Shown here one piece after another: positions 1,607 to 21,255 of a stretch of 64,000 nucleotides of DNA. Numbering within the stretch: position 1 is the first letter of the stretch; each line of letters opens with the position of its first letter. Below the pieces are notes generated by a model. That model did not search any database. It saw only the letters and a program-made list of their open reading frames with translations, and was not told the origin of the DNA. Position numbers and translations under genes: made by a program. Source of the stretch: Sulfuriroseicoccus oceanibius (GTDB taxonomy: Bacteria > Verrucomicrobiota > Verrucomicrobiia > Verrucomicrobiales > SLCJ01); the NCBI RefSeq assembly GCF_010681825.2, contig NZ_CP066776.1, positions 1,860,001 through 1,924,000 on the forward strand. Reading direction: 5' to 3'.

Positions 1607-2278
1607 CTAGCGGCGGCCTTCTTCTTCCTCTACGATGTCGCTGAGGGTGGTGCGAAGGTCTTTGCAGACCTTTTTCGAGCGGACGCCTTTTTGGAAAAGT
1701 CGGGTGGCGGTGACACGGCGCGAGACACTTGAGTATGATGACATGACACCGGCTTCTCCATCGGCCACACAAGAGGCGTTTTGGGATTGGACGCCGTAAT
1801 CCGCCGCGGTTTCCATTGCATTCTGTGTGGCGGCCAGAAAGAGAAACTCCCATTGGTACTCATTGGTTTGGTGCTGGATCATTTCGCGGATCTTGCGGGC
1901 CGAGTAGTCCGTTGAGGCGTTTTCATATCCGTCGGTATAGATGGCGATGATGACCTTTCCTGGGCGCTCGGCTTCCGGCATTTTCGCGAGCTTTTTGCCG
2001 ATGTTGTCGATCGTGCGTCCGATGGCGTCGAGCAGGGCAGTCATGCCCCGCGGGATATAAGTGCGGGCGGTCAGCGGGTTGACTTCGGCGACTGGTTCGC
2101 TGTCCGCGTGGAGCAGGTATTCATCGTCGAAGAGAACGAGGGTGAGGTTGGCGTCGCCATCGGTTTCCTGTTGTTCTTTGAGGAACTGATTGAACCCGGT
2201 GACCGCGGCTTCTTGGAATGGGGACATCGAACCAGAGCGGTCGAGGATGTAGGCGATTTCGGTAAGGTTTGTATTCAT
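1607..2278 (-). CDS. Small von Willebrand factor A (VWA) domain protein
   Basis: The 223-residue protein is essentially one VWA domain. The metal-ion-dependent adhesion site is intact: DRSGSM at residues 13-18, a Thr in RGMTALLDAI, and an Asp in IYTDGYENAS. There is no signal peptide or membrane segment, so it should be cytoplasmic. The start is the ATG at 2278. Repeat blocks isolate it on both sides. VWA proteins are a known partner in the predicted membrane-remodelling system built around FtsZ-like proteins and OmpA-family proteins. A tubulin-like and OmpA operon lies 4 kb away on the same strand, so a link is plausible but only inferred. The domain call is secure and the role is unknown. 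Confidence 0.85.
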   Translation of the reverse strand: MNTNLTEIAYILDRSGSMSPFQEAAVTGFNQFLKEQQETDGDANLTLVLFDDEYLLHADSEPVAEVNPLTARTYIPRGMTALLDAIGRTIDNIGKKLAKMPEAERPGKVIIAIYTDGYENASTDYSARKIREMIQHQTNEYQWEFLFLAATQNAMETAADYGVQSQNASCVADGEAGVMSSYSSVSRRVTATRLFQKGVRSKKVCKDLRTTLSDIVEEEEGRR

Positions 2279-2422
2279 GGGAGTTTGATTGCTGATTGGG
2301 AGCGGTTTCTACTCAATGCGTGTGGTTGTGGATGGTTCCGGAAATTTGTGTGTTTTTATCAAGATGATCCGGAGTGACGCTGATCACCTTAGACAAGGGC
2401 GTGGGACATTGGTGGGGTGAGG

Positions 2423-2735
2423 GGGAGGAAAGCAGATAGTTGAAATGAGAAATCTGAAATGAAGTGAGCGCGCTGGGCGCGGAGGAGGCTTGGTTTTTAG
2501 ACAGGATTTACACGATTCACGGGATTATGGGCTCACGCAGAGATGCAGAGGGGGGCTGAATTGGAGTGAGGGTGTCCTCACTGGCTGAGTCATGTCGTCA
2601 TGCAGGGGGGGCGATGGAGCAACCTCACTCCTGAGGTTGAACTAGGCTCCGGCGGAGCCGCTGGCTGAGGAGACTCACGCGAAGATCCCAAAGACCCAAA
2701 GGTGGAGATAGAGTGAGACGAGTTGAAGCTTCGCA
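2423..2735. repeat. Composite direct repeat, copy 1 of 3
   Basis: First of three adjacent copies of a composite unit that starts GGGAGGAAAGCAGATAGTTG and ends GAGTTGAAGCTTCGCA. It contains modules C, B, A and D in that order, plus the palindromic GGCTCCGGCGGAGCC. This copy lacks the internal E module seen in the other two. No gene is visible between 2279 and 3741. Confidence 0.85.
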
Positions 2736-3292
2736 GGGAGGAAAGCAGATAGTTGAAGTGGGAAGTTTGAAATGAAGTGAGCGCGCTGGGCTCGGAGGAG
2801 GCTTGTTTTTTAGACAGGATTTACATGATTCACGGGATTATGGGCTCACGCAGAGGCGCGGAGACGCAGAGGGGAGAAGAGTTTTAGGTGGTTACGTGGT
2901 TAGGTTTTAGGTGGGGAGTGGTCGCTGCGCTCCGGTGTGATCGAAGACGGTGGGGACAGCGTCACTCCAGGCACCGCACACGCTTGCGTAGAAATCATAA
3001 CAATCTGAGGAATCTGCGGTTCCCCCTATTCTTTAGACAGGATCAACATGATTCACGGGATTGCGTGTAGTGGCTCACGCGGAGACCACGCTATCGCTGA
3101 GACGCAGAGGGGGCTGAATTGGAGTGAGGGTGTCCTCACCGGCTGAGTCATGTGGTCATGCAGGGGGGCGATGGAGCAACCTCACTCCTGAGGTTGAACT
3201 AGGCTCCGGCGGAGCCGCTGGCTGAGGAGACTCACGTGAAGATCCCAAAGACCCAAAGGTGGAGATAGAGTGAGACGAGTTGAAGCTTCGCA
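2736..3292. repeat. Composite direct repeat, copy 2 of 3
   Basis: Second copy, directly abutting the first. It is longer because it carries an extra block with module E (CGCTTGCGTAGAAATCATAA) and a second module B near 3034. Its last 170 bases match copy 1 almost exactly. Confidence 0.85.
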
Positions 3293-3738
3293 GGGAGGAA
3301 AGCAGATAGTTGAAGTGGGAAGTTTGAAATGAAGTGAGCGCGCTGGGCGCGAAGGAGGCTTGTTTTTTAGACAGGATTTACACGATTCACGGGATTATGG
3401 GCTCACGCAGAGGCGCGGAGACGCAGAGGTTTTGAGGAACCGTCACTCCACGCTTGCGTAGAAATCATAACAATCTGAGGAATCTGCGGTTCCCCCTATT
3501 CTTTAGACAGGATCAACATGATTCACGGGATTGCGTGTAGTGACTCACGCGGAGACCACGCTATCGCGGAGACGCAGAGGTATGAATGAATTGGAGTGAA
3601 GGTGTCCTCACCGGTTGAGTCATGTCGTCATGCAGGGGGGCGATGGAGCAACCTCACTCCTGAGGTTGAACTAGGCTCCGGCGGAGCCGCTGGCTAAGGA
3701 GACTCACGCGAAGGTCCCTAAGACCCAAAGTCGGGAGA
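3293..3738. repeat. Composite direct repeat, copy 3 of 3
   Basis: Third copy, directly abutting the second. It has the same module order as copy 2 but lacks roughly 110 bases in the middle. It ends at the 3' end of the gene at 3742. Confidence 0.85.
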
Positions 3739-4639: not shown

Positions 4640-4773
4640 TTGCAGATTATCCAAGGTGCGCATTTTGATCAACCAGGAAGTCGTGGCAAGTGTGTCATAA
4701 AGATCAGGTGCACTTTCTACGTGGACTGGGGAGTCTTGACGCTGATGTGGTAATTGTGTTAGTCACCGGCGGC

Positions 4774-5772
4774 ATGAGCAACTTTGTTGGTGGTAGCAGG
4801 CTTCAGATGGAGCGGATTATTGAGATCTTCGAGGCTGTAAAGAGTAATCGCTATCCCAACTGCACGACATTGGCTGAAGAGTTGGAAGTGACGCCGAAGA
4901 CAATTCAGCGCGATATTTCCTTTATGAAGAGGCGCTTGAACGTTCCCATTGAGTACGACAAGTCGATGCATGGGTACGTGGTGACCGGCGATTGGGATGG
5001 CCTGCCTGGAATGGACGTACAAGTGGAGGATTTGGCGGCTTTGTTTTTAGCAAAGCATGCGTTGGGGAGTGTCAGGGGAACCCAGCTTGCGGATGCGCTG
5101 CGGCCGGCATTCGAGAAGCTCACGAGTCGGCTGGAGGGCAAGGTGAATATGAACTGGCGGGAGATGGACCAGGCGTTTTCGGTCAAGCAGGTCGGGGCGC
5201 TGGACGTGGATTTGAAAATGTTTGGCAAGCTGGCCGAGGCGGTGGTGAAGCAACTGTCTGTCGAGTTTTCCTATCGCAAGGTGGATGCGAGTTCATCCGA
5301 GCCACGGCGGCTGAACCCATACCACGTCGGGGAGATTGCCGGGGGCTGGTATGTGATTGGGTTTGATCTCGATCGTGAAGCGCTGCGGACCTTTGCGCTG
5401 CAGCGGATCAAAGGGCTGAAGGTGACCAGCGGGCATTTTGAGAGGATCGATGGATTTGATATCAACGAGCACATCGGATCGAGTGTGGGGGTGTGGGATA
5501 ACCAAAGCGCCCAATCTAGCGAGGTGGTGCTTGAGGTGAGCGGCTGGGTTGCGCGCATGGTGCAAGAGCGTAAGTGGCATTCATCGCAGAAGGTCAAAGC
5601 GCTCGATGACTATGGGACCAAGGTCGAGGTGCGGATGACCTTGGGGAACCTGGAGGAGGTGAAGCAGTTGGTGCTGAGCTGGGGGCGGAATGTGAAGGTG
5701 ATTGAGCCGGTCGAGCTGCGCGATGCGATTCGGGAGGAAGCGCAGGGGATGCTGGCTGTGTATGCGGGGTGA
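4774..5772 (+). CDS. WYL-domain transcriptional regulator
   Basis: From the ATG at 4774 the protein has about 332 residues. An N-terminal winged helix-turn-helix (MERIIEIFEAVKSN, then TTLAEELEVTPKTIQRD) is followed by a WYL domain (FSYRKVDASS, PYHVGEIAGGWYVIGFD, RTFALQRIKGL) and a C-terminal extension with VSGWVARMVQERKW. WYL proteins bind nucleotides or nucleic acids and regulate DNA repair and many phage-defence loci. This one is monocistronic and points away from the riboswitch. It faces the seven-gene operon tail-to-tail across an 835-base repeat block, so it could regulate that operon, though nothing direct shows this. An upstream GTG at 4690 and an ATG at 4807 are alternative starts. 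Confidence 0.85.
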   Translation: MSNFVGGSRLQMERIIEIFEAVKSNRYPNCTTLAEELEVTPKTIQRDISFMKRRLNVPIEYDKSMHGYVVTGDWDGLPGMDVQVEDLAALFLAKHALGSVRGTQLADALRPAFEKLTSRLEGKVNMNWREMDQAFSVKQVGALDVDLKMFGKLAEAVVKQLSVEFSYRKVDASSSEPRRLNPYHVGEIAGGWYVIGFDLDREALRTFALQRIKGLKVTSGHFERIDGFDINEHIGSSVGVWDNQSAQSSEVVLEVSGWVARMVQERKWHSSQKVKALDDYGTKVEVRMTLGNLEEVKQLVLSWGRNVKVIEPVELRDAIREEAQGMLAVYAG

Positions 5773-6607
5773 GGAAAGTAGTGATTGGTGATTGGTGATT
5801 GGCCGGGGCGATGCTGTTAGGCGGGTTTCGATGGAGCAACCTCACTCTTGAGGTGGACCTGCAGATCCGGCGGAGCCTCTGGATGGTTTTCTAGACAGGA
5901 TTCACATGATTTACGTGATTTTTAGGAGGTGTCGTGTGGTCGATAAAAGTTTGGAGAAAGGGGGCTCATGCAGAGACCACGCTAGTGCTAAGGCGCAGAG
6001 AAGAGGATGAAGTGGAGCGACGCCGTCACGTTGGGGAGGGGGAGGAAAGTAGACGGTTGAAATGGGAAACTTGAAATGAAGTGAGCGCGCTGTGCGCGGG
6101 TGTCGGGAGGATGCTCACGCAGAGGCGCGAAGACGCAGAGGTGTCGCTGCGCGACGGGTTTAAGGTTCGCTGCGCGGAAAGCGGGGTGTAGTTGAAGTGG
6201 AGATGACGCACAGCGTGCGGATCTGTTGGGAGGATGCTCACGCAGAGAGCCCAAAGACCCAAAGGTTTGGAAAAGGGGGGGGCTCATGCAGAGACCACGC
6301 TAGCGCTAAGGCGCAGAGAAGAGGATGAAGTGGAGTGACGGTGTCCTCACCGTCTGAGAGACGCCGTCACGTGGTTTCCGATCGAACACTCTCAGGTCTT
6401 AGGTCGGATGGAATGGCCACAAGAAAGGCAAGAAGTCACAAAAGCGGAAGCAAGATGGCTCACGCAGAGACGCGAAGACGCAGAGGTGTAGCTGCGCGAC
6501 GGGTTTAAGCTTCGCTGCGCGGAAAGCGGGTGGGGGGATTGAAGATCTAAGGTTTCAAAATTAAGATGAAGTTTGGCTGTGCGTTCCGCCATCTTCCATC
6601 AGGCTCA
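5773..6607. repeat. Gene-free repeat block between the WYL and HNH genes
   Basis: No gene is visible. Module D (GCAACCTCACTCTTGAGG, near 5833), module B (TCTAGACAGGATTCACATG, near 5890) and module A variants (near 5967, 6115, 6237, 6282 and 6461) are present. There is also a local repeat, GCGACGGGTTTAAG followed by TTCGCTGCGCGGAAAGCGGG (near 6154 and 6496). The phrase TCATGCAGAGACCACGCTAG occurs twice, near 5967 and 6285. Confidence 0.8.
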
Positions 6608-7507
6608 TTATGAGCGGCGTAGATGCTTTAGGCGCCAGGCGAGAGATTCTTCGGCTGGGAAGAATGCTTCATCGTTGGGGAGCAGGATGATTTGGCCATT
6701 GAGCTGGAGAAGCTCCTTTTCAGCGTCGGAGCGGCGGGAGTCGAAGAGCGGGCTGACGTGCCATTTGTGATCCGGCCCCGGGCTGATGAGTTTTTGGTCC
6801 ATGGCCCAGTGGTGGTGTTTGCACAATGCCATTCCATTGCTCGGGTGGTCGTTGTGGCTTTGGCTGAACGGAATTAGATGCGCGGCATCGATGAAGCGGA
6901 CGTCATGTTGCGGGAGCTTAATGCGCAGGCCGCAGGCCGCGCAGCGGTCGTCGTAAATCTGAGCGATTTTGTCGCGGAATGCTGAACTTCGTTTCGGGGA
7001 TTCCTGCACGCGGTCGCTAGCGTTTGTTTTCGGGGGCTCGTAGCGAGTTAGTAATTGCTGGCGATACTGAGGAAAGTAGCGGGAGATGAGCAACCGTCGG
7101 ACCGCATCGCGTTTCTCCGGCGTGTCGATCTCGCGTTGGAAGGCGTCGGAGAACTCTCCGACCACCATCCCTCGTTGCTGTTGCAGCGGTGCTTTTTGTA
7201 GCAACTGTCCTGTTGCGAGATCTTTGGCGACCCAGATCTTGTCCGACTTCAAGTGGTAGAATGGCAGCTGTGGAGTGCAGCTGTCATCCTTCGCCCGCAC
7301 CACATCGAAGAACCGCTTGAAGCTCTCGGTCAACTCCTGGTTCCAGACCACCTGGGAGGCGCTCGCCCGCCCCTGGTCGATCATCTCCAGCGCAGCCAGC
7401 AGGAGCAATGGCTTGTGAGGTCGCTCGTGGCGACCTGAACCGGTGCCGGTGATGCCGACGTTGAGGTTGTACAAGGTATCGGCGATGGAGGTGGGGTCGT
7501 GGGGCAT
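6608..7507 (-). CDS. HNH endonuclease with sulfur-binding-domain-like N-terminus
   Basis: 299 residues. Residues about 20-100 carry RHERPHKPLLLLAAL and later LPFYHLKSDKIWV, the signature of the sulfur-binding domain that lets ScoMcrA-type enzymes read phosphorothioate DNA. Residues 180-245 form an HNH nuclease: CAACG (Cys189, Cys192), IDAAHLIPF (His210), Asn224 and CKHHHWAMD. It is therefore probably a type IV-like restriction nuclease. It is the last gene of the seven-gene operon, starting 11 bases after the zinc-finger gene. In Zorya type II, a MotA/MotB pair is likewise accompanied by an HNH protein. The HNH call is secure, the sulfur-binding call is likely, and target specificity is unknown. 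Modified-base or plain-DNA recognition is also possible. Confidence 0.85.
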   Translation of the reverse strand: MPHDPTSIADTLYNLNVGITGTGSGRHERPHKPLLLLAALEMIDQGRASASQVVWNQELTESFKRFFDVVRAKDDSCTPQLPFYHLKSDKIWVAKDLATGQLLQKAPLQQQRGMVVGEFSDAFQREIDTPEKRDAVRRLLISRYFPQYRQQLLTRYEPPKTNASDRVQESPKRSSAFRDKIAQIYDDRCAACGLRIKLPQHDVRFIDAAHLIPFSQSHNDHPSNGMALCKHHHWAMDQKLISPGPDHKWHVSPLFDSRRSDAEKELLQLNGQIILLPNDEAFFPAEESLAWRLKHLRRS

Positions 7508-7518
7508 GTGGAAATTTC

Positions 7519-7992
7519 TTATGTGTGCGCTTTTGCGTGATGTCGCTCGAGTTTCTTAACGAAAACGCCACAGGTGGGGCAGCGGTGTAGGGTTCCTGCG
7601 GATAGAGCGCTCTCTAGACTCGGTCTAGGTGTGTGAGACTCCCAACTTTCAGCGTGGATGGTGCTTAAATGAAGGTCGATATCCCGGACCTTTTTCTTGC
7701 AGATCGAGCAGGTGACTTTCGGTCCTTTTCGACCATGCTTGGGTCTCGAATCTGTACGAGGGACTGTGGGGTAGGCGGATCTATGAGAGCCAGATTCGTA
7801 GATAAAGGTCTTCGGGGGATCATTGACCTCCCCATTGGATGTTCGTAGAACGGGTATACGCTGAGGTAGGCAAGACCTCCCTGATGTTGGAACGTCCCCA
7901 CTGCCCTGGCATCGAAAGCAATTGGGGTTGAGGCCACCACAACAACATGTGCGGGCTGCTCCGGACTTTGTGGGTTCGCTATTGAGGCTCAT
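7519..7992 (-). CDS. Multi-zinc-finger small protein
   Basis: From the ATG at 7992 the protein has 157 residues. A TTG at 8043 would add 17 residues. Three Cys/His clusters are visible: TCCCGGLNPNCFRCQGSGD near the start, CSICKKKVRDIDLHLSTIH in the middle, and CPTCGVFVKKLERHHAKAH at the C-terminus. The last two have the CxxC...HxxxxH layout of small zinc knuckles. There is no catalytic motif or membrane segment. It sits between the MotB-like gene (66 bases upstream) and the HNH gene (11 bases downstream) and is surely cotranscribed. It may bind DNA, RNA or the nuclease as an adaptor. This role is inference from the fingers and the position. Confidence 0.7.
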   Translation of the reverse strand: MSLNSEPTKSGAARTCCCGGLNPNCFRCQGSGDVPTSGRSCLPQRIPVLRTSNGEVNDPPKTFIYESGSHRSAYPTVPRTDSRPKHGRKGPKVTCSICKKKVRDIDLHLSTIHAESWESHTPRPSLESALSAGTLHRCPTCGVFVKKLERHHAKAHT

Positions 7993-8058
7993 AGTGATGA
8001 CGGGCACTGAATTGATGCGTCTGGTCGTGGGACGTCTCCTCAAGTGAGGATGAGGCGC

Positions 8059-9087
8059 TTAGTCACGGAGGCGAGTGAGGCGCATTTCGATGCGACGCGC
8101 CTTGGCGTCATCCTGTTCGAAGTCGGCTTGTTCCACGTCACGTTTGTCTGATGGGAGGATGGTTTGCCCTGCGGAGTAGCATCGTACGGTGATCGACTGC
8201 AGGATGGATTTCTGCTCGTGAGCGTCGGTGAAGGCATCCCACTGGGCTTTCACGGCGAGTGCGCGAAGGAGTCCCAGATCGTTGTTCGATCCTGCTCGCA
8301 GTGATTGGAAGGTGGACGTGTCTCCGGCAAGCAGGCGAGGGAGTTTGGAGTCGAGGTTGCCGCTGCCTGCGAGAGGAATGCCATCGGTATGTCCGATGAT
8401 CTCCAAGGTGTCTACTTTCGCCCGTCCCTGTTGCTGGCGATCTATGATCTCCTTTGCCAGCTTCTCAAATTCAACATCCTTGAGACCATCGGCAAACTGA
8501 GGGCCTATAAGCGAGCTGCCGGAAGGGAACTGGTACTGCTCCTTCTGTTCGTCGATCCGAATGATCGGTGGCTTGTCGTTGAGGATTCCTTTGAGACGCT
8601 CGACCTCCTCCCACCCGTTATTATCCATCGCGTCTTCGAGCTTAGCGGTGAGTTCTTTGATTTTCGCTTGGAGCTCTTTGTTTTGTGCAATGAGGTCGGC
8701 ATTCTCACTTTCCAGTTCTGCGAGTCTCTGCAGGAGTCCTTGTTGGTCGAAGGTGGCAAGGTTCTCGCGCAACTCAACAATGATGTCGTTGGCTGACTCG
8801 CATGTCTCTTTCAGAGAGGTGACGACTGCGTTCGGATCCGCTTCGTCTGGAACAGGTTCAAGGCCGATCGTGGGTCGCAGGGTGTTGATCGGTGTTCGAA
8901 TACTTATGAGGTCTAAACCACCAACGGCTTCAATAACCGCATCCCTGGGCGCTGAATTACTCTTTGGCATCAAGACAAACACCACCGCACCCAGGATGGC
9001 AACTGAGATGATGAAGAGCGTGATGAACAAATCAGAGACACTAGGCCAGTATCCTGAATTTGGATTGTCGTCTTCGGGGTCTAGCAT
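8059..9087 (-). CDS. MotB/ZorB-like inner-membrane protein with OmpA domain
   Basis: 342 residues. One membrane helix lies at residues 18-40, starting WPSVSDLFITLF. Asp19 falls where MotB and ZorB carry the proton-binding Asp. A coiled coil follows (about 105-170), then an OmpA/MotB peptidoglycan-binding domain (about 180-342) with IGHTDG at 231-236, NNDLGLLRALAV and a final ARRIEMRLTR. This is the layout of a stator B subunit: a short cytoplasmic tail, one helix, then a periplasmic anchor. It begins 20 bases after the MotA-like gene, so the pair is almost certainly coexpressed and forms a complex. The fold is secure. Whether it really conducts ions is an inference from the Asp. Confidence 0.85.
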   Translation of the reverse strand: MLDPEDDNPNSGYWPSVSDLFITLFIISVAILGAVVFVLMPKSNSAPRDAVIEAVGGLDLISIRTPINTLRPTIGLEPVPDEADPNAVVTSLKETCESANDIIVELRENLATFDQQGLLQRLAELESENADLIAQNKELQAKIKELTAKLEDAMDNNGWEEVERLKGILNDKPPIIRIDEQKEQYQFPSGSSLIGPQFADGLKDVEFEKLAKEIIDRQQQGRAKVDTLEIIGHTDGIPLAGSGNLDSKLPRLLAGDTSTFQSLRAGSNNDLGLLRALAVKAQWDAFTDAHEQKSILQSITVRCYSAGQTILPSDKRDVEQADFEQDDAKARRIEMRLTRLRD

Positions 9088-9107
9088 TGGGCTACAGGCG
9101 ATTTAGA

Positions 9108-10688
9108 TCAGTTGCTTCCGAAAAGGCGCATTCTTCTTGATACCCTGGATTTGATTTCCTCGGCCGATCTCTCGATCGACTTCACCCCTTCCGATATCTT
9201 TTCGGAGAGCTGTTCGTTTTCATCTGCCAACCGGGCGGCGGTGCCTTCCAGTGTAGCTCGGGATTCCTTGGCCTCTGCTACAACTGTTTGCATAGTGGTA
9301 GCGTTTGCGTCTAGCTTCGTGTGCACGTCGTTGAGCTGCTCCTTCACGGTGGTCTTTAGATCTCCAACCAGCTCGCGGTTCAGCTGGTTCGCTGAGGTTA
9401 CTTTGCTGGCGACTTGATCCGCACTTTCTGCGAGTTTATGACTTGCCGTCCTTAGCTCTTCGATGGACTCGCTTTGCTTCTTCGTGACATCTGCCAGAGT
9501 TGCTTTGGTGTCATTTTCGAACTTTTCAGCGACCTTGGAGACTTTCGCTCCGACTTGATTGAAGACCTCAGAAGCGGCGATCTCGGTGGCGTTCTCAATT
9601 CGGCTTGGGATGTCGCTAAGAGCCGACTCGATATCACGCAACGTGGTCTCGAAGTTGTCGATACTCTTCGCTACGCGCTTGTTCGATTTTGTCGCTTCGG
9701 AACTGATACCGGACACACTCTTAGCGAGAGTATCGAGAGTATCGTTGAAGCCTGTTATCGCGTTGTGGAGTGGGGACTTCTCTCCAAAGGTGTCAGTGAG
9801 TGAATTATTGAGTGAAGAGCTGCTATCGCTCAATGAGCGGGCTGCAGTATGCGCTTGCCCAACCCCATCACGCAGTAGTGCCATTGCTGGTGCAATTGTG
9901 CCCAACAGATCTCTCAGCCCCTTTATGACTTCCTCAAATTTTCGCTCACGCTCTCCGACCTCGTCGGTTAGCTCTTTTACTTGGTCTGTAACTCCCGAGA
10001 GTTGGAGATGAAGTGGTTCGACGCGGAAGCGAGTGAGGAGGGTTCCTTGGGTGAAACGGTCGAGATCGATGATGAAACTATGCAGTGCTATCGAGTAGAA
10101 TCCCCGGCAGAGCAATACAAGTAGTGTGAAGCCGAGTGCGACGAGACTCGGTGTAAATGCTCCACCCAAACTCTGAATCATTTCTGAGACCAAATTCGCA
10201 CTGTCTGCGACTCCCTGCAGTTCTCCGTTTGCAGTGGTTTTGATGCGGAACGCTGCGAGGATTGGCTTGATTGCCAACAATGTGCCCACGATTCCAAGCA
10301 CCAGCAGTGACGTTGCGATTCCTGAAGCGATCCGAAGAGATTTACGGGCTCGTTCTCTCTTAACCGAGGCTGAATGGAACTCCGACAATGAAGTGGGGCG
10401 ACCGATGTACCATGAAGTCCAGGCGGTTCTCGCCGCGTCGCTCACATGAGACTGTTGATTTATTTCTCGTTCTTTGAGCCAGCGCTCAAACGCTTCGTCG
10501 TTTTCGGCAAATGCGCCTTTCCAGTTGCTATCGAGAACGAGAGCTCTTTTGGCTTTACGTAAGGCATCGCGTTCGACAGCGATAGCTCGCCAGGCGATTA
10601 ATGCAGCCACCATGCCAATGACTCCGACCGCACCGACGATGATCGCACTGAGAGTTGGTGGAATGTTTATGTATGAGAGTGTGATCAT
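9108..10688 (-). CDS. MotA/ExbB/ZorA-like protein with long coiled cytoplasmic tail
   Basis: 526 residues. Membrane helices lie near residues 12-36, 119-143 and 175-200. The second contains VLGIVGTLLAI and the third follows GGAFTPSLVALGF, matching the conserved GxxGT and AFxTSLxGL positions of MotA, ExbB and ZorA. From about residue 230 to the end the protein is an uninterrupted Ala/Glu/Lys/Ser-rich helical tail (for example VKELTDEVGERERKFEEV). Flagellar MotA and ExbB lack such a tail, while ZorA has one. Its start overlaps the stop of the substrate-binding/OmpA gene by 4 bases, and the MotB-like partner follows. It is probably the A subunit of an ion-driven five-to-two stator complex. Tail function is unknown and may involve signalling to the nuclease. 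Confidence 0.85.
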   Translation of the reverse strand: MITLSYINIPPTLSAIIVGAVGVIGMVAALIAWRAIAVERDALRKAKRALVLDSNWKGAFAENDEAFERWLKEREINQQSHVSDAARTAWTSWYIGRPTSLSEFHSASVKRERARKSLRIASGIATSLLVLGIVGTLLAIKPILAAFRIKTTANGELQGVADSANLVSEMIQSLGGAFTPSLVALGFTLLVLLCRGFYSIALHSFIIDLDRFTQGTLLTRFRVEPLHLQLSGVTDQVKELTDEVGERERKFEEVIKGLRDLLGTIAPAMALLRDGVGQAHTAARSLSDSSSSLNNSLTDTFGEKSPLHNAITGFNDTLDTLAKSVSGISSEATKSNKRVAKSIDNFETTLRDIESALSDIPSRIENATEIAASEVFNQVGAKVSKVAEKFENDTKATLADVTKKQSESIEELRTASHKLAESADQVASKVTSANQLNRELVGDLKTTVKEQLNDVHTKLDANATTMQTVVAEAKESRATLEGTAARLADENEQLSEKISEGVKSIERSAEEIKSRVSRRMRLFGSN

Positions 10689-12655
10689 GGTTTTACGACC
10701 CAGACTTCCGCTCTGCGGTTTCTGGCTTTTCCTGCTTCGGTTTCATTGGTGTCGATAGGGAATTCAGAGCCCAGACCCGCTGCCTTTGTATCAACATTGG
10801 ACTTGAGCAGTTCATCCACGACGGTCTGAGCGCGTTCTTTGGAGAGTGGGATATTGATGTCCGCGCCACCGGTGCTGTCGGTGAATCCGAGAATCACGAG
10901 TTGGTGTTTGGGATAGTTTGCCGCGACGAATTTCGGCAAGCGCTCCAAGTCAGCCTGGGCCTTAAGGTCCAGATCGGATTTTCCTGTCGCGAAGCGCAGG
11001 TTGGTGGAAATGCGCAGAGCGGACTTTATGTCCTCTCCGAGCGCCTCGCCAAGTGCGGCTAAGATTCTAGGGTCAACGCTCCCTTGCATTGGCCGGAGGC
11101 GCAGATCAACGAAACCGCAGTCGGCAACTGTGGACTGCCCCTTGTCCGAAGTCGCAAACTGCACAAAGTCCAAAGCATTTTGGGACGGGCTCTGAGGCGT
11201 CCAGGCGACCACGCGGTAGGTGAACGGGTAGTCTTCGGTTGCGATCGTGAACGGGCTTGGTTTCAGTGGTCTGGTGTCTTTGGTTGCTTGTACCGCCAAG
11301 CGTTTGGCCCGGATGTTGCGGGATTCCGCATGGTATGCCCCCAGACCAATAACCGACTTGTCGAGCAGAACGGCCGTTTCGGTTGTTGAACCATCCACGG
11401 TGATAGGCTGCAAGCCCCAGCGTTGAGCCAAGGATTTCACCAGTTCGTTGAGCTCGCCGTTCGCCGTAATCAAATTGGCATTGTCGTTGATATGGTAGGT
11501 TTCAAGCTCTGTTTCCGGGTGTGCCAGCAGGGTCATGGCATCGAGCGCAATCACCTCTGCTACCGACCTGGATTCTTTGAAGTCTGGCCCGAGTTGGGCC
11601 AGCTCTGCCTCGCTTGGTGGACGATTTACGATGAGCAGATCTGCTTTGCCTTCTGCAAGAAGGGTAAAGGCCTGATCGACCGATGTGGTCGTGATCAGGA
11701 TCTTCTCTTCACCTGATCTGACGTAGGACGATGACCCATCCGTTTGAATTTCGACGTCTGTCAGCTGCGCTAAGATGAGTGGCTGGAGAAGTCGGACACC
11801 TAGTGTATCGACCGTGACTATGCGCATGGTCGCTTCGCTGGCATCGAACAGGACAGGGGGCAGCGGTACATAGGCATTGAGTGACTGCTGAATCCCAGTG
11901 AGGGACTCTCCGATTACCATGAGTTGCTGCTTATCGGAATCGCGGCCTTGTGTGTCGTCGTTGCCTCTGGCCAGCTTCGAAGCCCGTGCCATTTCCGCAC
12001 GGACCGATTCGGTGAGGTTGTCGTAGTCGACGCCGTGGGTGTCACATGCACTCTCTTGCTGGGTCGTTTGAGTCGTCTCTTCAAGTTGTTGAAGTGATTG
12101 TACCAGTTGACCTGCTTGAGTGCGTAATTCGTCGGTTTGCAACGGCTGTGACGCCTTCTGCTGCAAGTGCTGCAGTTGTTTCTCGAACTCAGAAGCTTGT
12201 GCTTGAAGGGCTGCAACCTTCTCATCGTCTTTGGCTGCGAGAGCTCCATTGGCCGCAGACGCCAGTGCGCCCACGCCTTGTTGGAGCTCTGCGATTGCGG
12301 CTTGATTCCCTTGAGTGGATTGGCTGGCCGCGATTGCGGTCTCCAAGCTGCCTACCTCAGAGGATAGCTGCTCAAGTGATTCATGGATCGAGTTGAGCTT
12401 TCCTTCGCAACGGTCCGCCGTGATGAACCGGTAGGCGCCTAGGGCAATCAGAGCCACTACAAGCAGGGCGAAAATGCCCTTGATCGCAGATTTGAATCCG
12501 CGAGTTTCCGTCACCTTTATGGGCTCTCTGAAGGTCTCACAGTGCGGGTTGTTACACGGGCACTTCCAGTCTGGAGTTGGGTCTACGATTTCCTTGGACA
12601 CCGAGAGCGGGCAGCTCTCGGTGGGGTCGTCACATCTGAATTTTTTCGAGCTCAT
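10685..12655 (-). CDS. Cys-rich N-terminus, membrane anchor, substrate-binding and OmpA fusion protein
   Basis: 656 residues. The cytoplasmic N-terminus has five cysteines (8, 15, 32, 34, 39: FRCDDPTESCPL, WKCPCNNPHCETF), perhaps a zinc site. One membrane helix (about 57-77) is followed by a coiled coil (80-210) and a PstS-like periplasmic binding domain (about 265-520; KADLLIVNRPPSEAEL, TVDGSTTETAVL). The C-terminal OmpA domain (about 540-656) has VILGFTDSTGG, PLSKERAQTVV and ARNRRAEVWV. Similar substrate-binding/OmpA fusions exist in other bacteria. It overlaps both neighbours by 4 bases. In this operon it may sense a periplasmic ligand or wall state and tie the tubulin-like protein to the envelope. 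That role is inferred. Confidence 0.85.
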   Translation of the reverse strand: MSSKKFRCDDPTESCPLSVSKEIVDPTPDWKCPCNNPHCETFREPIKVTETRGFKSAIKGIFALLVVALIALGAYRFITADRCEGKLNSIHESLEQLSSEVGSLETAIAASQSTQGNQAAIAELQQGVGALASAANGALAAKDDEKVAALQAQASEFEKQLQHLQQKASQPLQTDELRTQAGQLVQSLQQLEETTQTTQQESACDTHGVDYDNLTESVRAEMARASKLARGNDDTQGRDSDKQQLMVIGESLTGIQQSLNAYVPLPPVLFDASEATMRIVTVDTLGVRLLQPLILAQLTDVEIQTDGSSSYVRSGEEKILITTTSVDQAFTLLAEGKADLLIVNRPPSEAELAQLGPDFKESRSVAEVIALDAMTLLAHPETELETYHINDNANLITANGELNELVKSLAQRWGLQPITVDGSTTETAVLLDKSVIGLGAYHAESRNIRAKRLAVQATKDTRPLKPSPFTIATEDYPFTYRVVAWTPQSPSQNALDFVQFATSDKGQSTVADCGFVDLRLRPMQGSVDPRILAALGEALGEDIKSALRISTNLRFATGKSDLDLKAQADLERLPKFVAANYPKHQLVILGFTDSTGGADINIPLSKERAQTVVDELLKSNVDTKAAGLGSEFPIDTNETEAGKARNRRAEVWVVKP

Positions 12656-15636
12656 ACGCTAAGAATCTTGCGGATGTGGGTACGGGTTTTGGTCCACTGA
12701 ACGTGTTGTTTGCTGCCGGTGCCAAACTCATTGATGAGCTTGGATTCCTCGGCTTTCATCGCATTTGCCAACTCATCCTTCGTTGCTGTGGTGGCTCCTG
12801 CAATCTCACCGGTCACGGCTTCGTTGACTCGCGCGATCAAGCGAATGTCGGCCTTTGTTTCCAAATGCTCGATGCTTTCACCGAGTTCGTAGAAGTTGGT
12901 GTCCCCGTTGCGGTCCAAAGTGACCAACTGCACGGCATCCTCAGTCACTGTGATAACTGTAGTTCCCGATCCGTCTGCCAGAGTGCGCTGGCCAAGCCAA
13001 AGACTGGCACGCATGATGTCGCGTTGTTCGCTGGCTGATGGTTGGAGCAAATCTGGGAGTTCGTCGTGCTCTCCTTTCGCATCGATGTTACTAAAGTAGG
13101 CGATGTCTCCCAAGGTGTTCTGCTCGATCGCCTTGGCGTATTTGTCAGCCAGTTCATGGGTGACTTTTGCAAAGCGTGCAGCCATCCAAGTGACTGTCAT
13201 CAAGAGTCGGATCTGAGTCGAGTCGTCGTGGCTCACCACTCTCACAGGATTGTTCGCTTCGTTTGCTGGGCGAAGCTCTGCAGCGATTTCCTCGAACTTG
13301 GCTGCGAAGGCATGACCTTTTGGGAGTGCCAGTACCCGGGAGGTGGTCGGCATGGTCGGCATGGTCATGTTTCCAGCGATCATCTTGGGTTGCTGATCGT
13401 TATGAATCTTGATCAAGCAGGTCGTCTGATCGATGAACTCTTTTAGTTCGTTCTTGAATGCTCCTGGATCTTTTTCAAATTTCGCCTGAAGAGCGTCCAT
13501 CAACGATGAAGTGAGCACTGCTGGGGCGAGCCTCTGCTCCTCGAAATCTTTGTGAATTGATTGGACGTGAGCGAAAACAAGACGATCAGCCTCAATTTGA
13601 TAGTTTGTGAGACGGTCCCCCTCGAAGCTTTCTATTTCGGTCAGCGGGACGTTCTTGCCAAGGAGCTCCAAGACGACGTCCCTGCGGAGCTGGTCGGCGA
13701 TGGCCCGGCAATGCGATTCACTTGAGCGTTGAACTGAGATGTATTGAAGCAGTCCGTCATAGTCGATCTCGTATTTGTTCGAGGTGTGGGACTTGTTGAG
13801 GTCCTTGAGTTCGCCCAGAAGTACGTCTCTACGGTTGCTAGCCCAATCTGCAAAACCTTGAAGTTTTCTGGCTGCGTTTTTGTACTGGTGTTCGATTCCG
13901 GTGAGGCTGTTGGCGATGGCATTGTGATATGCCAAATCCTCTTCCGCAATTGCAGTTGCTAGTTTCCCCAGTAGCAAGGATTTGCAGTCAGAGTGTTGCT
14001 TTCTAGCCAAAGGTTCCTTTTTGAAACGGCGGGAGAGGAAGGTCATCTTGCTCCATTCGATTCTGCGGTCAGAAAGCCGTCTCTCGGTCGTGTCCGAACC
14101 CGATTTAGAGGAACTATTACCATCTTTGATCTTGCGGTTTACGTCATTTTGCAGTCGCTTGAGAATGTCCGACACGTTGGCCATTCCAATGGGATCTACC
14201 GCTTTGCTCCATTCTTCCCGTAGAATCCGGTGTAGCTCTTTGGTGAACTGTTGAATACGTCCTTCCCGGGACGCCTTGAAGTCGGCAATGACAGCGTTGA
14301 TTCCCTGGCCGTTGAGATGTTTCTCGAAGCGAGTATGAAGGGACTCCTCCAGCTTCTCCAAGTCAGTTTCCTGAAACTTGGTGCTGATTTCACGATCAAG
14401 GACCGCTTTGGCGTCCGTTTCGAACGACGCTCTGAGGTTGGTGTGGTGGGTGCTCTCCACCAGATGTTCGTCGAGCTTGGTTCTCAAGGTGTTGAAGGTG
14501 CTTTCTACGACCTTGTCGGATTCGGTAGACTTCTTTCCAATGAAGCCGTCGTTTCCGTGCCAGTTGTTGTAGAGCATCTGGTTGTATGACGAACTGTAGA
14601 GTTCCAAGGCGAGGAGCTCGGTGATCTTCTCTGTGGGAACCTCCCACCGCTGCATGCCTGAGCTGCCGAAACGGAAGCTGCGAATGGGCTTGTTGATAGG
14701 CTCTCCGGGGAAGTTGGGGATCTTGTCCTGGCCGGTAAGTTGATCTTGTTGCTGAGGCGGTAATTGGCCAGAGCAGAAGGCGAAGATGCGCTCGAATGCA
14801 GATTCCGCTATGATGCGGTGCTGCTTCTCGAGTTCGACGTTCTGATCCCCGTTGTTATGGCTTGAGCTCAGGATGATTTGATTGATCGGCTCCGAACACG
14901 CGAAGCTAGATCCCCCGAATTGATCACCGAGGAGGGTTGGGGCGATACGTCCGCAAGCGAGAGCGTTGAGGTCTCGCAGAGTTGCATACTGGTTTTGGTG
15001 GAAGTTTCCTACCTCGGCATCTTGGTAGTTGTCACTGGTTACGTAGAGGTAAACGAAGATTGGGAAACCTCCTTGCATGCTCGAGTAAGGATGCATCGTG
15101 CGGAGTAATGTAACCAAGTCGACGATGCTGCCGCTGCCCGTTCCTCCCGCCAATGATGCGAATACATGGAAAGCGCACTGCTTTGCCGCTGCGGTCATGG
15201 TTCGAACCTTGCCATCAATCGCGTTCTTCACGCTGTCGATGCTGTTGGCGAAGAGGATTCGTCCAAAGCGGCGGCGTTGGTTAGCTCCCTCGATGGTATC
15301 TGATGCGTCGAGGAATCCCTTGATCTGTTCGACGTCGCCAATCCATGGCGCGATGTCTGGCTTCATCGCGAGTTGGTCAATGTCGATCGTTGCGCCCATC
15401 TCCTTGAGATTTAGAAAGCACTTAGGAGGGAGCGAGAGATCCTCTCCGAACGAGGTCCACTTTTTCGTGTAGTTGAGGACGTTCGTACTAGAGTCGATGT
15501 AGAGGAAGTCGAATTGCGTGCCTTTCTCACGCTTTAGAAGTCGGATGTCATCAGCACGTTGGTGCATGACCTTGCGCATTTCGGCGAGGCTGTTGCCTCC
15601 TTGGCCTCCGAGGCCGATAAACAGGTGGTTTTTCAT
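12652..15636 (-). CDS. Giant tubulin/FtsZ-superfamily GTPase (Tubulin_2-like)
   Basis: 994 residues, more than twice FtsZ. The N-terminal GTPase core shows the T1 loop GLGGQGGN (8-15), a T3-like IDSSTNVLN (47-55), RRFGRILFANS (122-132) and the tubulin signature AGGTGSGS (163-170), then NQYATLRDLNAL. Beyond about residue 330 lies a long mostly helical region with several coiled-coil stretches (about 360-730) and a smaller C-terminal domain (about 780-994). It has no membrane helix. Its start lies 30 bases after the upstream membrane gene, and its end overlaps the substrate-binding/OmpA gene by 4 bases. FtsZ-like proteins of this sort were predicted by comparative genomics to act with VWA and OmpA proteins in membrane remodelling. 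GTP binding is very likely. Polymer formation is untested. Confidence 0.9.
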   Translation of the reverse strand: MKNHLFIGLGGQGGNSLAEMRKVMHQRADDIRLLKREKGTQFDFLYIDSSTNVLNYTKKWTSFGEDLSLPPKCFLNLKEMGATIDIDQLAMKPDIAPWIGDVEQIKGFLDASDTIEGANQRRRFGRILFANSIDSVKNAIDGKVRTMTAAAKQCAFHVFASLAGGTGSGSIVDLVTLLRTMHPYSSMQGGFPIFVYLYVTSDNYQDAEVGNFHQNQYATLRDLNALACGRIAPTLLGDQFGGSSFACSEPINQIILSSSHNNGDQNVELEKQHRIIAESAFERIFAFCSGQLPPQQQDQLTGQDKIPNFPGEPINKPIRSFRFGSSGMQRWEVPTEKITELLALELYSSSYNQMLYNNWHGNDGFIGKKSTESDKVVESTFNTLRTKLDEHLVESTHHTNLRASFETDAKAVLDREISTKFQETDLEKLEESLHTRFEKHLNGQGINAVIADFKASREGRIQQFTKELHRILREEWSKAVDPIGMANVSDILKRLQNDVNRKIKDGNSSSKSGSDTTERRLSDRRIEWSKMTFLSRRFKKEPLARKQHSDCKSLLLGKLATAIAEEDLAYHNAIANSLTGIEHQYKNAARKLQGFADWASNRRDVLLGELKDLNKSHTSNKYEIDYDGLLQYISVQRSSESHCRAIADQLRRDVVLELLGKNVPLTEIESFEGDRLTNYQIEADRLVFAHVQSIHKDFEEQRLAPAVLTSSLMDALQAKFEKDPGAFKNELKEFIDQTTCLIKIHNDQQPKMIAGNMTMPTMPTTSRVLALPKGHAFAAKFEEIAAELRPANEANNPVRVVSHDDSTQIRLLMTVTWMAARFAKVTHELADKYAKAIEQNTLGDIAYFSNIDAKGEHDELPDLLQPSASEQRDIMRASLWLGQRTLADGSGTTVITVTEDAVQLVTLDRNGDTNFYELGESIEHLETKADIRLIARVNEAVTGEIAGATTATKDELANAMKAEESKLINEFGTGSKQHVQWTKTRTHIRKILSV

Positions 15637-15666
15637 GGTTGGAAAGTACTTGAAAGGGTAATGGAG

Positions 15667-16446
15667 TTAGAGGGTTTCTTTGATGTCGTTGAGTGCCGTG
15701 GTAGCGACGATGAGGAGTTGGGACATCAGCGAGATTCCCAATGCTACCAAGGCAATTGTTTGAAGGAGGGAGAATGGTTTGGCCAACTCCTTGAGAAGTT
15801 TGTCGACTGCGCGGCCGGTTCCAACGGTTACCGCGGTCGATGTCCAAATGTTGGCTGGGGAGACAATCACGGGGTAATCTGAGGAGGGGAATCCGACTTC
15901 TGCGAGTGCGCGGGATCCTGTGAGTTCGGGGCTAATCTCCGGTTCTTGAATGCCCGAGGAAAAGAGAGAGAAATCTCTTCTTTGCTGACTGGCGAGCTCT
16001 GCTGCAGTAGTACTCAAGACGAGTGCTTCTGCCGGACCGTTGATGCGGAGTTCGTTTCCTCCCTCGGAGGGCGGGGTGAGTCCTTCTTGTCCTCCCTTGT
16101 GTGCAATCTTGGCCCAAGTGGCCAGTAGAACTTCGCGATTGAACTTGCCATTGCTCGAGATCGTTTGGCTAACTTCAGCCCGTTGGTTCTCGATCGAGTC
16201 GAAGGCCTTGTGCGTTACCAGTGCCAGATAGACGGATGTGGCTCCGATGACGGCCAGAAGAAGCGATGTCGTAGTGGTAACGAGGTGGTCACCGATTGTC
16301 CACTGCTTATTCCACAGCCTTCCCCAAAAAAACAACAACAGAGGAATCCATACAAAAACGACACATCCGGCCACAAAGATTGGCCACGTAAGGCCTGATG
16401 AGGCGGGATATTTGAGTGCAAACTCTAGAAGTTCAGGGGCACGCAT
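15667..16446 (-). CDS. Membrane protein, first gene of the tubulin/MotAB/HNH operon
   Basis: From the ATG at 16446 the protein has about 259 residues. A TTG at 16458 is the alternative. Two membrane helices lie at about 19-41 (FVAGCVVFVWIPLLLFFW) and 53-76. A soluble loop of about 150 residues precedes a C-terminal helix (about 225-250, LVALGISLMSQLLIVATT). I recognise no family. The middle stretch after the second helix (NQRAEVSQTISSNGKFN, then EVLLATWAKIAHKG) is probably extracytoplasmic. It leads the operon and ends 30 bases before the tubulin-like gene. A TTGACA hexamer lies at 16482-16477 on this strand, 17 bases before a weak ATTGTT. If that is the promoter, the leader would be very short. 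Confidence 0.75.
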   Translation of the reverse strand: MRAPELLEFALKYPASSGLTWPIFVAGCVVFVWIPLLLFFWGRLWNKQWTIGDHLVTTTTSLLLAVIGATSVYLALVTHKAFDSIENQRAEVSQTISSNGKFNREVLLATWAKIAHKGGQEGLTPPSEGGNELRINGPAEALVLSTTAAELASQQRRDFSLFSSGIQEPEISPELTGSRALAEVGFPSSDYPVIVSPANIWTSTAVTVGTGRAVDKLLKELAKPFSLLQTIALVALGISLMSQLLIVATTALNDIKETL

Positions 16447-16804
16447 GGTTGGTAACAATCCGATTTAGATCGATGGTGTCAAGGTTTCGGAGCGTTTGTG
16501 GCTGATTTTGATCGAGCGTTCTGCGGAGCCTTTGGCACTAAAGGAGGCGAGTTTGGTGTAGGTATTTTGTTTGATGGGCTGCTGATGGCTTTTTAGATGC
16601 TCGGAAAACATACACCTTGGGGTGGGACAAGGGCTGGGGGATGGCGGTAGGAAATCGGAAGGAAAATTTGAAATGAGGCGGCGGTGTGTGGCAGGTGGAT
16701 GTCGTTGAAGGTCAGGTGTCGGTGATTAGTATTTGTTGATCAGGACATTGGCGGTCCCTACTAACAACTTTCATAGATGTTAAGTATGGCGTAGTGGATG
16801 CGCC
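16447..16804. promoter_or_regulatory. Divergent intergenic region between the operon and the nuclease gene
   Basis: It holds the start regions of the minus-strand operon and the plus-strand nuclease gene. A TTGACA is seen on the minus strand (16477-16482). It carries only weak traces of the repeat modules seen in other gaps (GGAAAATTTGAAATGAGG near 16661). No gene or clear operator palindrome is visible. Confidence 0.4.
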
Positions 16805-17422
16805 ATGAATCAACGCCCCCTCTTGATCCTGGTTGTATTAGTGTGTCTTGTCTCGGTGCTTTTTGGTCATTCGGCCGAGGAGTTGCGGGGGAAGGTGGTC
16901 CGTGTGGCGGATGGAGATACGATTACTGTGCTGGTGGAACGCGAGCAGTATAAAGTGCGGTTGGATGGGATTGATGCGCCTGAGATGGGGCAGGCTTTTG
17001 GTAATAGATCGAAGCAGGCGTTGTCGGGTCAGGTGGCTGGAAAGCAGGTGGTGGTGAAGGTGAATGGTAAGGACAAGTACGGGCGGACGATTGGTGTGGT
17101 CATTTTAGACAATACCAATGTGAATGAGTGGATGGTGGCTGAGGGGTGGGCGTGGCAGTATACTAAGTATAACCGGAGTGAACGCTTGGCGCGGATGGAG
17201 GCGCGCGCCAGGGAGCTTGGGCTCGGACTGTGGGCGGGGGCGAACCCAGTGGCGCCGTGGGAGTACCGGCCGCTGAAGAAGAAACGCCCGGTTTCTGGCT
17301 ATTGGTTGAATACATCGTCGAACACGCGGCACAACTCGAACTGTGAGTGGTATGAGAACACGGCGCGTGGAAGGACGTGTGGGAAGGATGAGGGTAAGCC
17401 TTGCGGGAGTTGCGGCGGGTGA
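16805..17422 (+). CDS. Secreted staphylococcal-nuclease-like (thermonuclease) protein
   Basis: 205 residues with an N-terminal signal peptide (LLILVVLVCLVSVLFGHSA). The SNase domain carries VADGDTITVL, VRLDGIDAPEMGQ (catalytic Arg and calcium-site Asp) and KYGRTIGVVI, so it is probably an active calcium-dependent nuclease outside the cytoplasm. The tail (SGYWLNTSSNTRH, then CEWYENTARGRTCG and CGSCGG) is a Cys-rich module often attached to bacterial SNase domains. It begins divergently from the operon at 16446 and is alone. A second SNase-like gene is at 47686. Its location beside the defence-like operon may be chance. Confidence 0.88.
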   Translation: MNQRPLLILVVLVCLVSVLFGHSAEELRGKVVRVADGDTITVLVEREQYKVRLDGIDAPEMGQAFGNRSKQALSGQVAGKQVVVKVNGKDKYGRTIGVVILDNTNVNEWMVAEGWAWQYTKYNRSERLARMEARARELGLGLWAGANPVAPWEYRPLKKKRPVSGYWLNTSSNTRHNSNCEWYENTARGRTCGKDEGKPCGSCGG

Positions 17423-18743
17423 GGCGGGGGAAATGGGAAAGTTGAGATGGGAGATTTGAAATGAAGTTTGCGCGCTGCGCGCGGATGGTAGGAAGGAGGC
17501 TCACGCAGAGACGCAGAGACGCGGAGACGCAAAGGGAGAGGAAAAGCGGAAAGTAGAAATTGGAGATGTGAAATGGAGTGAGTGCGCTGTGCGCGGAGGG
17601 ATGGGAGAGTGCTCACGCAGAGATCCCAAAGACCCAAAGTGGGAGATGTGTTTCGCCTGAATGATGATGGGCTCACGCGGAGACGCAGAGGGAGTGGAGA
17701 AATGCGGCTGCGCCGGGTGGGACGGCTTGCCGACCAGATGGTTGGCGTTCCAGAAGCTGTGCGTGCTGCGGAGTGATTTGGGCTAGACGGGGAAGCCTTG
17801 ATTCCAATCTGCGTAATCGGCGCAATCTGCGGATTACAAAAGAAGGGGCACAGGTAGCAGCGTCCTGGGGATCTCGACCGTTGATTTAGGTGGAGGCTTT
17901 GAGGCATCGGTGGACAGGGTGAGCGGCGGAGGATGTTCGTCGGAACCTACACAGGTCCTCCGCCGCTCGTGCTAAGTTTGATGAAAGCGACAAGACTTAG
18001 CGCGGTGGGGGTACGAGTGGATGGAGGTGGTTGCAATCGGGGGCGTGTGAAGGATTCGTTGCGGATGTTGGCATCTCAGACAGGACGGATAGGATTCACA
18101 GGATTGTTTATGGGCTCACGCAGAGACGCGGAGTGTGAGGAAAAGCGGAAAGTTGAGATTGGAGATGTGAAATGGAGTGAGTGCGCTGTGCGCGGATGGA
18201 GAGGAGGTGGCTCACGCAAAGACGCGGAGACGCAGAGTGTGCGGAAAAGCGGAAAGTTGAGATTGGAGATGTGAAACGGAGTGAGCGCGCTGTGCGTGGA
18301 TGGAGGGGAGATTGCTCACGCAGAGATCCCAAAGACCCAGAGTTGAGGCATGGTTATTGGGTGTTTTTTTCGACAGGATGAACATGATTCACAGGATTTT
18401 GTGGGGGAGGTTGGAAATGGGAAATGAAGAGGATTGGCTGTGCACGGATGGAGGGAGATGGCTCACGCGGAGACGGGGAGACGCAGAGGGAGAGGAGAAA
18501 TGCGGCTGCGCCGGATGGGATGGCTTGCCGACCAGATGATCGGCGTTCCATGAGCTGTGCGTGCTGCGGAGTGATTTGGGCTAGACAGGGATGCCCTGAT
18601 TCCAATCTGCGTAATCGGCGCAATCTGCGGACTCTGATAGCAATGTCATGAGTGACAGTGTGTGGGGGGGAGTGGAAATCGGTGAGTGTGGGTGAATTAG
18701 CTTGCCGCGCAGGGGCTTAAAGGGATGATGTTACTCGACTGTT
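17423..18743. repeat. Gene-free block of modular repeats
   Basis: Module A and its CCCAAAGACCCAAAG variant recur (near 17502, 17624, 18115, 18211 and 18315). Module C recurs as GAAATGAAGTTTGCGCGCTG and relatives (17458, 17572, 18171, 18275). Module B appears near 18079 and 18371. A longer duplicate (AAATGCGGCTGCGCCGG through GAGTGATTTGGGCTAGACGG to AATCTGCGTAATCGGCGCAA) is present at about 17700-17835 and 18505-18632. The short frames here are built from repeats and are not credible genes. Confidence 0.8.
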
Positions 18744-21180: not shown

Positions 21181-21255
21181 TGATCGGTGTTGGTGTGTGT
21201 GTGGGGGGGGGACTTCCATGCGTTAGGCGTTTTTTGAACAGGAGTTGAGACGGGG

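Follow-up and report, generated by a model that had tools for sequence, protein, structure and literature searches.

A conserved envelope operon that combines a tubulin-like GTPase with a Zorya-like motor pair in Sulfuriroseicoccus oceanibius

Do the genes for a tubulin-superfamily protein and a MotA/MotB-like motor pair in Sulfuriroseicoccus oceanibius form one unit, and, if so, what does it do and with which nuclease? The locus lies in a stretch of 64,000 nucleotides (the window; contig NZ_CP066776.1, positions 1,860,001 to 1,924,000) of a genome that is a single contig of 3.50 Mb, with relatives in the Verrucomicrobiota. A preliminary description had proposed a seven-gene operon on the minus strand, merging a predicted FtsZ-like/OmpA system with a Zorya-like motor and an HNH nuclease. 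An ORF check of the window recovered all seven ORFs where they had been placed and with the tight spacing claimed, in gene order a 30-bp gap, two 4-base overlaps and gaps of 20, 15-66 and 11 bp, the 15-66 bp range reflecting the choice between a TTG and an ATG start for the zinc-finger gene. Family searches found the expected domains, namely Tubulin_2, OmpA, a weak solute-binding match, ZorA/ZorB-like matches, a weak zinc finger and HNH. A promoter and terminator scan gave no more sites than shuffled sequences. An exported SNase gene outside the range originally given also belongs to the picture. The features are the following.

15667..16446, minus strand: TM1, membrane protein, first core gene; 2-3 predicted TM helices and an invariant W-x-x-x-WN motif
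12652..15636, minus strand: FtsZl1-family tubulin-like GTPase (P0006), 994 aa; T1 (GLGGQGG) and T4 (GGTGSG) loops, long helical insertion and predicted activation domain
10685..12655, minus strand: SBP-OmpA protein (P0005); N-terminal zinc ribbon, TM helix, periplasmic coiled coil, PstS-like domain and OmpA domain
9108..10688, minus strand: MotA/ZorA-like motor subunit (P0004), 526 aa; long cytoplasmic coiled tail
8059..9087, minus strand: MotB/ZorB-like motor subunit (P0003); TM segment with Asp19 and C-terminal OmpA-like domain
7519..8043, minus strand: two-zinc-finger protein, accessory
6608..7507, minus strand: SBD-HNH (phosphorothioate-type) restriction-like nuclease (P0001), accessory; independent of the core in relatives
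16805..17422, plus strand: exported SNase-family nuclease, divergent from TM1 across a 358-bp gap; recurrent neighbour of the core
4690..5772, plus strand: HTH-WYL regulator, convergent to the operon; a homolog lies near the core in L034, and the gene is island context, not core

Relatives were sought with the tubulin protein in the same order and in named genomes, and their neighbourhoods were classified by iterated profiles. The core order TM1, tubulin, SBP-OmpA, MotA and MotB recurred in about a dozen other lineages, which belong to the Verrucomicrobiota (L018, L019, L020/L034, L022, L023, L025 and L080, all in the same order) and to the purple sulfur Gammaproteobacteria, represented by Thiocapsa imhoffii (L021) and Thiodictyon (L026, where the upstream gene was not scored as TM1). 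The Akkermansia loci (L013, L014, the partly cut L081, and L082) carry an expanded core, in which MotA is present in one to four copies and TM1, on contigs that extend far enough, in two. Since the same five genes recur in the same order in relatives, conservation of the predicted core is far beyond chance. The tubulin was present in only 20 of the 387 genomes of the order. In a tree of 41 tubulins, every motor-bearing locus fell inside one clade of 17 (93/85), the two motor-less members of which are on contigs ending inside the operon. The Chromatiaceae tubulins were nested among those of Verrucomicrobiota, and transfer between phyla is therefore implied. No motor-type operon was found on a plasmid or phage in the collections searched, nor any viral contig or phage match; carriage by phages or plasmids was rejected, the two plasmid FtsZl1 matches (L010 and L011) being without the motor. 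That these collections yielded no such operon counts against a defence role. Four consecutive MotA-like genes, a stator-subunit expansion, were observed in the Akkermansia-lineage loci L082 (2318-7675) and L081 (14531-20000).

The proposed seven-gene unit thus stood for the five genes from TM1 to MotB (16446-8059), whereas genes six and seven (8043-6608) accompany the core only here. The HNH gene had 17 near-full-length copies in 190 genomes of the order, the window's own included; none of the other 16 was linked to the core, and the sole other genome with both the HNH gene and the operon (G483) carries them on different contigs. A homolog search gave no convincing relative of the zinc-finger gene. 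Both genes were rejected as members of the conserved unit because they lack co-occurrence with the core in relatives, and we regard them as additions because the other HNH copies are unlinked to it, several lying instead near HsdM or helicase genes. The suggestion that the HNH nuclease is the effector of the operon was accordingly not supported; the preliminary description had itself named missing co-occurrence in relatives as a refutation, and for the HNH part this is what was seen. P0001 contains an HNH_2 domain (E=2.5e-9, over the cut-off) and matched the SBD-HNH family NF045808 over residues 27-295 (E=3e-32), although at 111.8 bits it stayed below the cut-off of 180. Its N terminus is sulfur-binding-like by sequence (SBDHga1 8h0l, 2.8e-8 at 28-93). 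P0001 resembles the phosphorothioate-dependent SBD-HNH endonucleases EcoWI and SprMcrA (PMC7461809) in its SBD-like N terminus, PHK motif and C-terminal HNH domain; unlike them, it falls under the NCBIfam cut-off, and its phosphorothioate dependence is putative. The fit to SBD-HNH is far better than that to ZorE (4e-4, 17.7 bits). ZorAB recruits ZorE, itself an HNH effector (PMC11890865), and this precedent, together with the weak ZorE similarity and the 11-66 bp spacing on the same strand, speaks for an alternative in which all seven genes are one unit here and the HNH and zinc-finger proteins are effectors of a motor-tubulin sensor, as ZorE is in Zorya II. The unlinked HNH homologs elsewhere in the order, the isolation of the zinc-finger protein and the much closer SBD-HNH match make this arrangement very improbable.

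The MotA/MotB-like pair has the predicted architecture of an ion-driven stator, with a TM Asp, an OmpA-like domain and a long cytoplasmic tail. Asp19 of MotB (WPSVSDLF) was invariant in 11 of 11 sequences, and the OmpA-like C terminus, with the motif GHTD...RRIE, is predicted from sequence to bind peptidoglycan. The MotA family has kept the stator-type TM segments and has a long variable tail of about 300 aa. P0003 was ZorB-like by PADLOC alone (30.9 bits, E=3.8e-8), and the single-sequence ZorA-like matches of P0004 lay mostly in the coiled tail; with the MotA family profile, the ZorA match covered the motor (TM) helices and the tail, part of its score being coiled-coil similarity. The best PDB match of both family profiles was 8VVN, the type I ZorAB of Shewanella (PMC11890865), at 4e-9 for MotA and 1.5e-6 for MotB, and among solved structures the motor is closer to ZorAB than to TolQR, ExbBD or flagellar MotAB. 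The claimed merger of FtsZl1 and OmpA proteins with a Zorya-like MotA/MotB pair was therefore recovered as a conserved operon whose closest solved motor is type I ZorAB. The curated Zorya cut-offs were not reached (best ZorA NCBIfam score, 20.7 bits versus 250), and the operon was therefore not filed as Zorya. It is like Zorya types I and II in having a MotA-like protein with a long cytoplasmic tail, a MotB-like protein with a peptidoglycan-binding domain and nuclease neighbours, and Zorya defence is reported to depend on ion flow, on the ZorA tail and on binding to peptidoglycan (PMC11890865). Unlike Zorya, it contains no recognised ZorC, ZorD, ZorE, ZorF or ZorG, and beyond the Zorya parts it has the tubulin, PstS-OmpA and TM1 proteins.

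P0006 matched Tubulin_2 (PF13809) at E=3e-33, with 116 bits versus a cut-off of 27, and residues G8-G11 and G13 and G164-G169 of the GTP-binding loops T1 and T4 were invariant. Its AlphaFold model (pLDDT 86) matched CetZ (Z 28.4, rmsd 3.3, 316 residues aligned) and also tubulins, bacterial BtubB included. The CetZ and tubulin alignments span residue 1 to about 843-865 (Z 25-28), and the model consists, in order, of an N-terminal GTPase domain, helices at 374-760 and alpha/beta segments at 764-839. Because only some 320-360 residues align across this span, the predicted tubulin fold is most likely complete, with about 400 residues of helical insertion ahead of the activation domain; the placement of that domain was derived from alignment ranges and secondary structure. 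The protein is a predicted cytosolic tubulin-like GTPase whose complete fold would be split by a long helical insertion. In the 2010 paper, T6-H7 elements and similarity to the C-terminal domain were not identifiable in FtsZl1 (PMC2875224), a description that the predicted complete fold looks to go against. Neither the tubulin nor TM1 matched any PADLOC family, a point against a defence role.

P0005 carried an OmpA domain (PF00691, E=7e-13) and a weak solute-binding match, and its model (pLDDT 78) resembled PstS-type phosphate-binding proteins and YiaD-type OmpA domains. The zinc-ribbon cysteines 8, 15, 32 and 39 were invariant or nearly so. This second envelope protein is predicted to have its zinc ribbon in the cytoplasm and its PstS-like domain in the periplasm, with one TM helix between them, and it also carries the OmpA domain. 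FtsZl1 genes outside the motor clade were without the motor; most of these loci have a small TM protein comparable to TM1 upstream of FtsZl1, and the next gene commonly encodes an N-terminal zinc ribbon and a TM helix (L010, L015-L017, L031-L033, L038-L041, L046 and L087). The window's SBP-OmpA protein is an elaborated version of this zinc-ribbon/TM partner, and the TM and zinc-ribbon proteins are possibly a universal anchor pair of FtsZl1, which is absent from the 2010 text (PMC2875224). Two further loci, L084 and L086, combine FtsZl1, TM1, SBP-OmpA-like genes and a PP2C-like phosphatase without MotAB; they lie near ftsA (both) and ftsZ (L084), the phosphatase, ftsA and ftsZ being named by eye.

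With FtsZl1 (Tubulin_2) systems (PMC2875224) the operon shares the GTPase family, the upstream TM protein, the OmpA-domain partner and the additional presence of a conventional FtsZ; the usual vWA, kinase and P-loop GTPase partners (PMC2875224) are absent from it. Makarova and Koonin proposed in 2010 a membrane remodelling or envelope role for FtsZl1 and mention no MotA/MotB, ExbB/TolQ or nuclease (PMC2875224). The tubulin conflict systems of Kaur et al. 2020 likewise have tubulin-family proteins with coiled coils; unlike the operon, they are built on GAP1/DO-type GTPases, vWA or HSP70 (PMC7159879). No P-loop GTPase or HSP70 family was matched among the seven proteins, and neither was a recurrent neighbour. 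We counted the prediction of tubulins in other conflict systems (PMC7159879) for defence. The literature searched contained no account of a tubulin combined with ZorAB, or with MotA, OmpA and a nuclease.

We found that the exported SNase is a better nuclease candidate than the HNH protein. An SNase gene lies within 17-358 bp of the operon in six lineages, the window (358 bp, divergent) included: in L013, L019, L020/L034 and L023 it precedes TM1 by 17-128 bp, on the same strand, and in L026, where the ORF is short and perhaps truncated, it follows MotB by 250 bp. The 13 operon genomes searched had 0-3 SNase matches each, and the six cases compare with 0.005 expected, given a density of about 0.33 genes per Mb and a limit of 600 bp around each of 13 operons, a very large excess in a post hoc test that assumes independence. 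Most core-adjacent SNases carry a C-terminal helix-hairpin-helix (HHH_3), and the SNases have Asp, Arg, Glu and Arg at the positions that we take to be catalytic, as assigned from S. aureus nuclease. About half of the core loci are without an adjacent SNase, which counts against a defence reading. The exported SNase, with its DNA-binding HHH_3 in most copies, and the PstS-like fold would also suit a system for nucleic-acid scavenging or uptake. In it, the SNase would break down DNA or RNA outside the cell, the phosphate or nucleotides set free would be bound by the PstS-like domain, and the motor would power outer-membrane or envelope transport in the manner of TonB-ExbBD; a motor of this class also drives TonB-type systems (PMC11890865). 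Such a system is improbable: neither an outer-membrane receptor nor an inner-membrane transporter is a recurrent part of the operon, the tubulin is left unexplained, and the neighbours are of defence type and not of the phosphate regulon. Three minor observations concern the same gene family or position. An SNase also adjoins a different FtsZl1 locus (L087), and a second, more distant SNase-family gene lies in the window at 47686-48372 (+), near no FtsZl1 gene. In L018, a QueC-like (7-cyano-7-deazaguanine synthase) ORF, identified by eye at 7814-8845, lies directly upstream of TM1, in the slot occupied elsewhere by the SNase.

The neighbours of the core include CRISPR arrays, RT and Cas6 in L021 (Thiocapsa), a PDC-S37-type DUF4011 helicase directly downstream of MotB in L023 (Rubritalea), mREase_IV-type helicases in L018 and L026, caspase and CHAT genes in L026, WYL regulators in the window and L034, and the SBD-HNH gene in the window. 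Random stretches of related genomes, used as a control, gave generic kinase, mad6 and Mokosh-type hits alone among the 25 families listed, the flank proteins of this PADLOC comparison being hand-picked and their hits, too, being those among the matches listed. These defence-type neighbours are suggestive, not decisive. SspA/DndA matches in the flanks were not counted as defence, since they probably stem from the cysteine desulfurase at L026:2115-3365. The Akkermansia operons adjoin gyrBA, and related motor-less FtsZl1 loci adjoin ftsA-ftsZ, a housekeeping look that argues against defence and for a non-defence envelope machine, that is, a Tol-Pal/ExbBD-like complex, ion-driven and anchored in peptidoglycan, which a tubulin-like filament would steer so as to support or remodel the envelope or the shape of the cell, with nucleases as accidental island neighbours. 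The TM and zinc-ribbon/TM proteins that flank FtsZl1 across phyla, the OmpA and PstS-like domains and the 2010 prediction (PMC2875224) point the same way. Given the sparse distribution and transfer between phyla, the repeated SNase adjacency and island neighbours, and a motor nearest to ZorAB among solved structures, we consider this machine unlikely.

The five-gene envelope architecture itself is well supported by the sequence comparisons. An anti-phage function, read from context, is plausible because of the sparse distribution, the transfer between phyla, the ZorAB-like motor, the SNase adjacency and the defence-type neighbours. Our best explanation, held tentatively and at somewhat below an even chance, couples an ion-driven motor, anchored in peptidoglycan, to a tubulin-like GTPase; the complex would defend against incoming DNA much as Zorya does, and about half of the lineages add a nuclease partner. 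Both OmpA domains would grip peptidoglycan, and the PstS-like domain or a displacement of peptidoglycan would sense an envelope breach, such as the entry of phage or plasmid DNA. The ion channel would then open and the MotA tail turn, as proposed for ZorAB, while the zinc-ribbon protein would tie the tubulin-like GTPase to the membrane at the breach, where it could assemble into a filament or a clamp. The nucleic acid that enters might be cut in the periplasm by the SNase and in the cytosol by an island-supplied nuclease, possibly the HNH protein here. The operon would work like Zorya without being a member of it. It is doubtful that the operon stands for an immune machine of a new class, with a tubulin-family cytoskeletal GTPase coupled to a Zorya-like, ion-driven and peptidoglycan-anchored motor that senses the entry of DNA, and with an exported nuclease cutting in the envelope. 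The FtsZl1 branch of the tubulin superfamily has lacked an explanation since 2010, and a fixed operon of FtsZl1 and a stator motor gives the first concrete handle on its energy source, membrane anchor and nuclease partner, in a compact, testable set of five or six genes. If its role is defence, bacterial immunity would include a cytoskeletal GTPase that works together with an ion motor; otherwise the operon would encode a new motor-driven envelope machine.

Several minor features were also observed. The window encodes a small vWA-like protein (1607-2278, minus strand). A homolog in L023 (7014-7697) lies close to the core, and a further vWA-like protein, identified by eye, adjoins an HNH homolog in L101; with these occurrences alone, vWA was rejected as a conserved partner. 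A truncated ORF at 1-899 (-) of the window was judged by eye to resemble DUF2779/Cas4-like nucleases. In L089, three consecutive partial FtsZl1 frames (863, 109 and 543 aa; 6418-11343) have near-identical N termini. Dense interspersed intergenic repeats flank the operon in the window (800-3700, 5880-6530, 17400-18430 and 21250-22000); they belong to CTCACGCAGAGACGCGGAGACGCAGAG-like and AGACAGGATnnACATGATT-like families, none of which is listed within 6600-17400.
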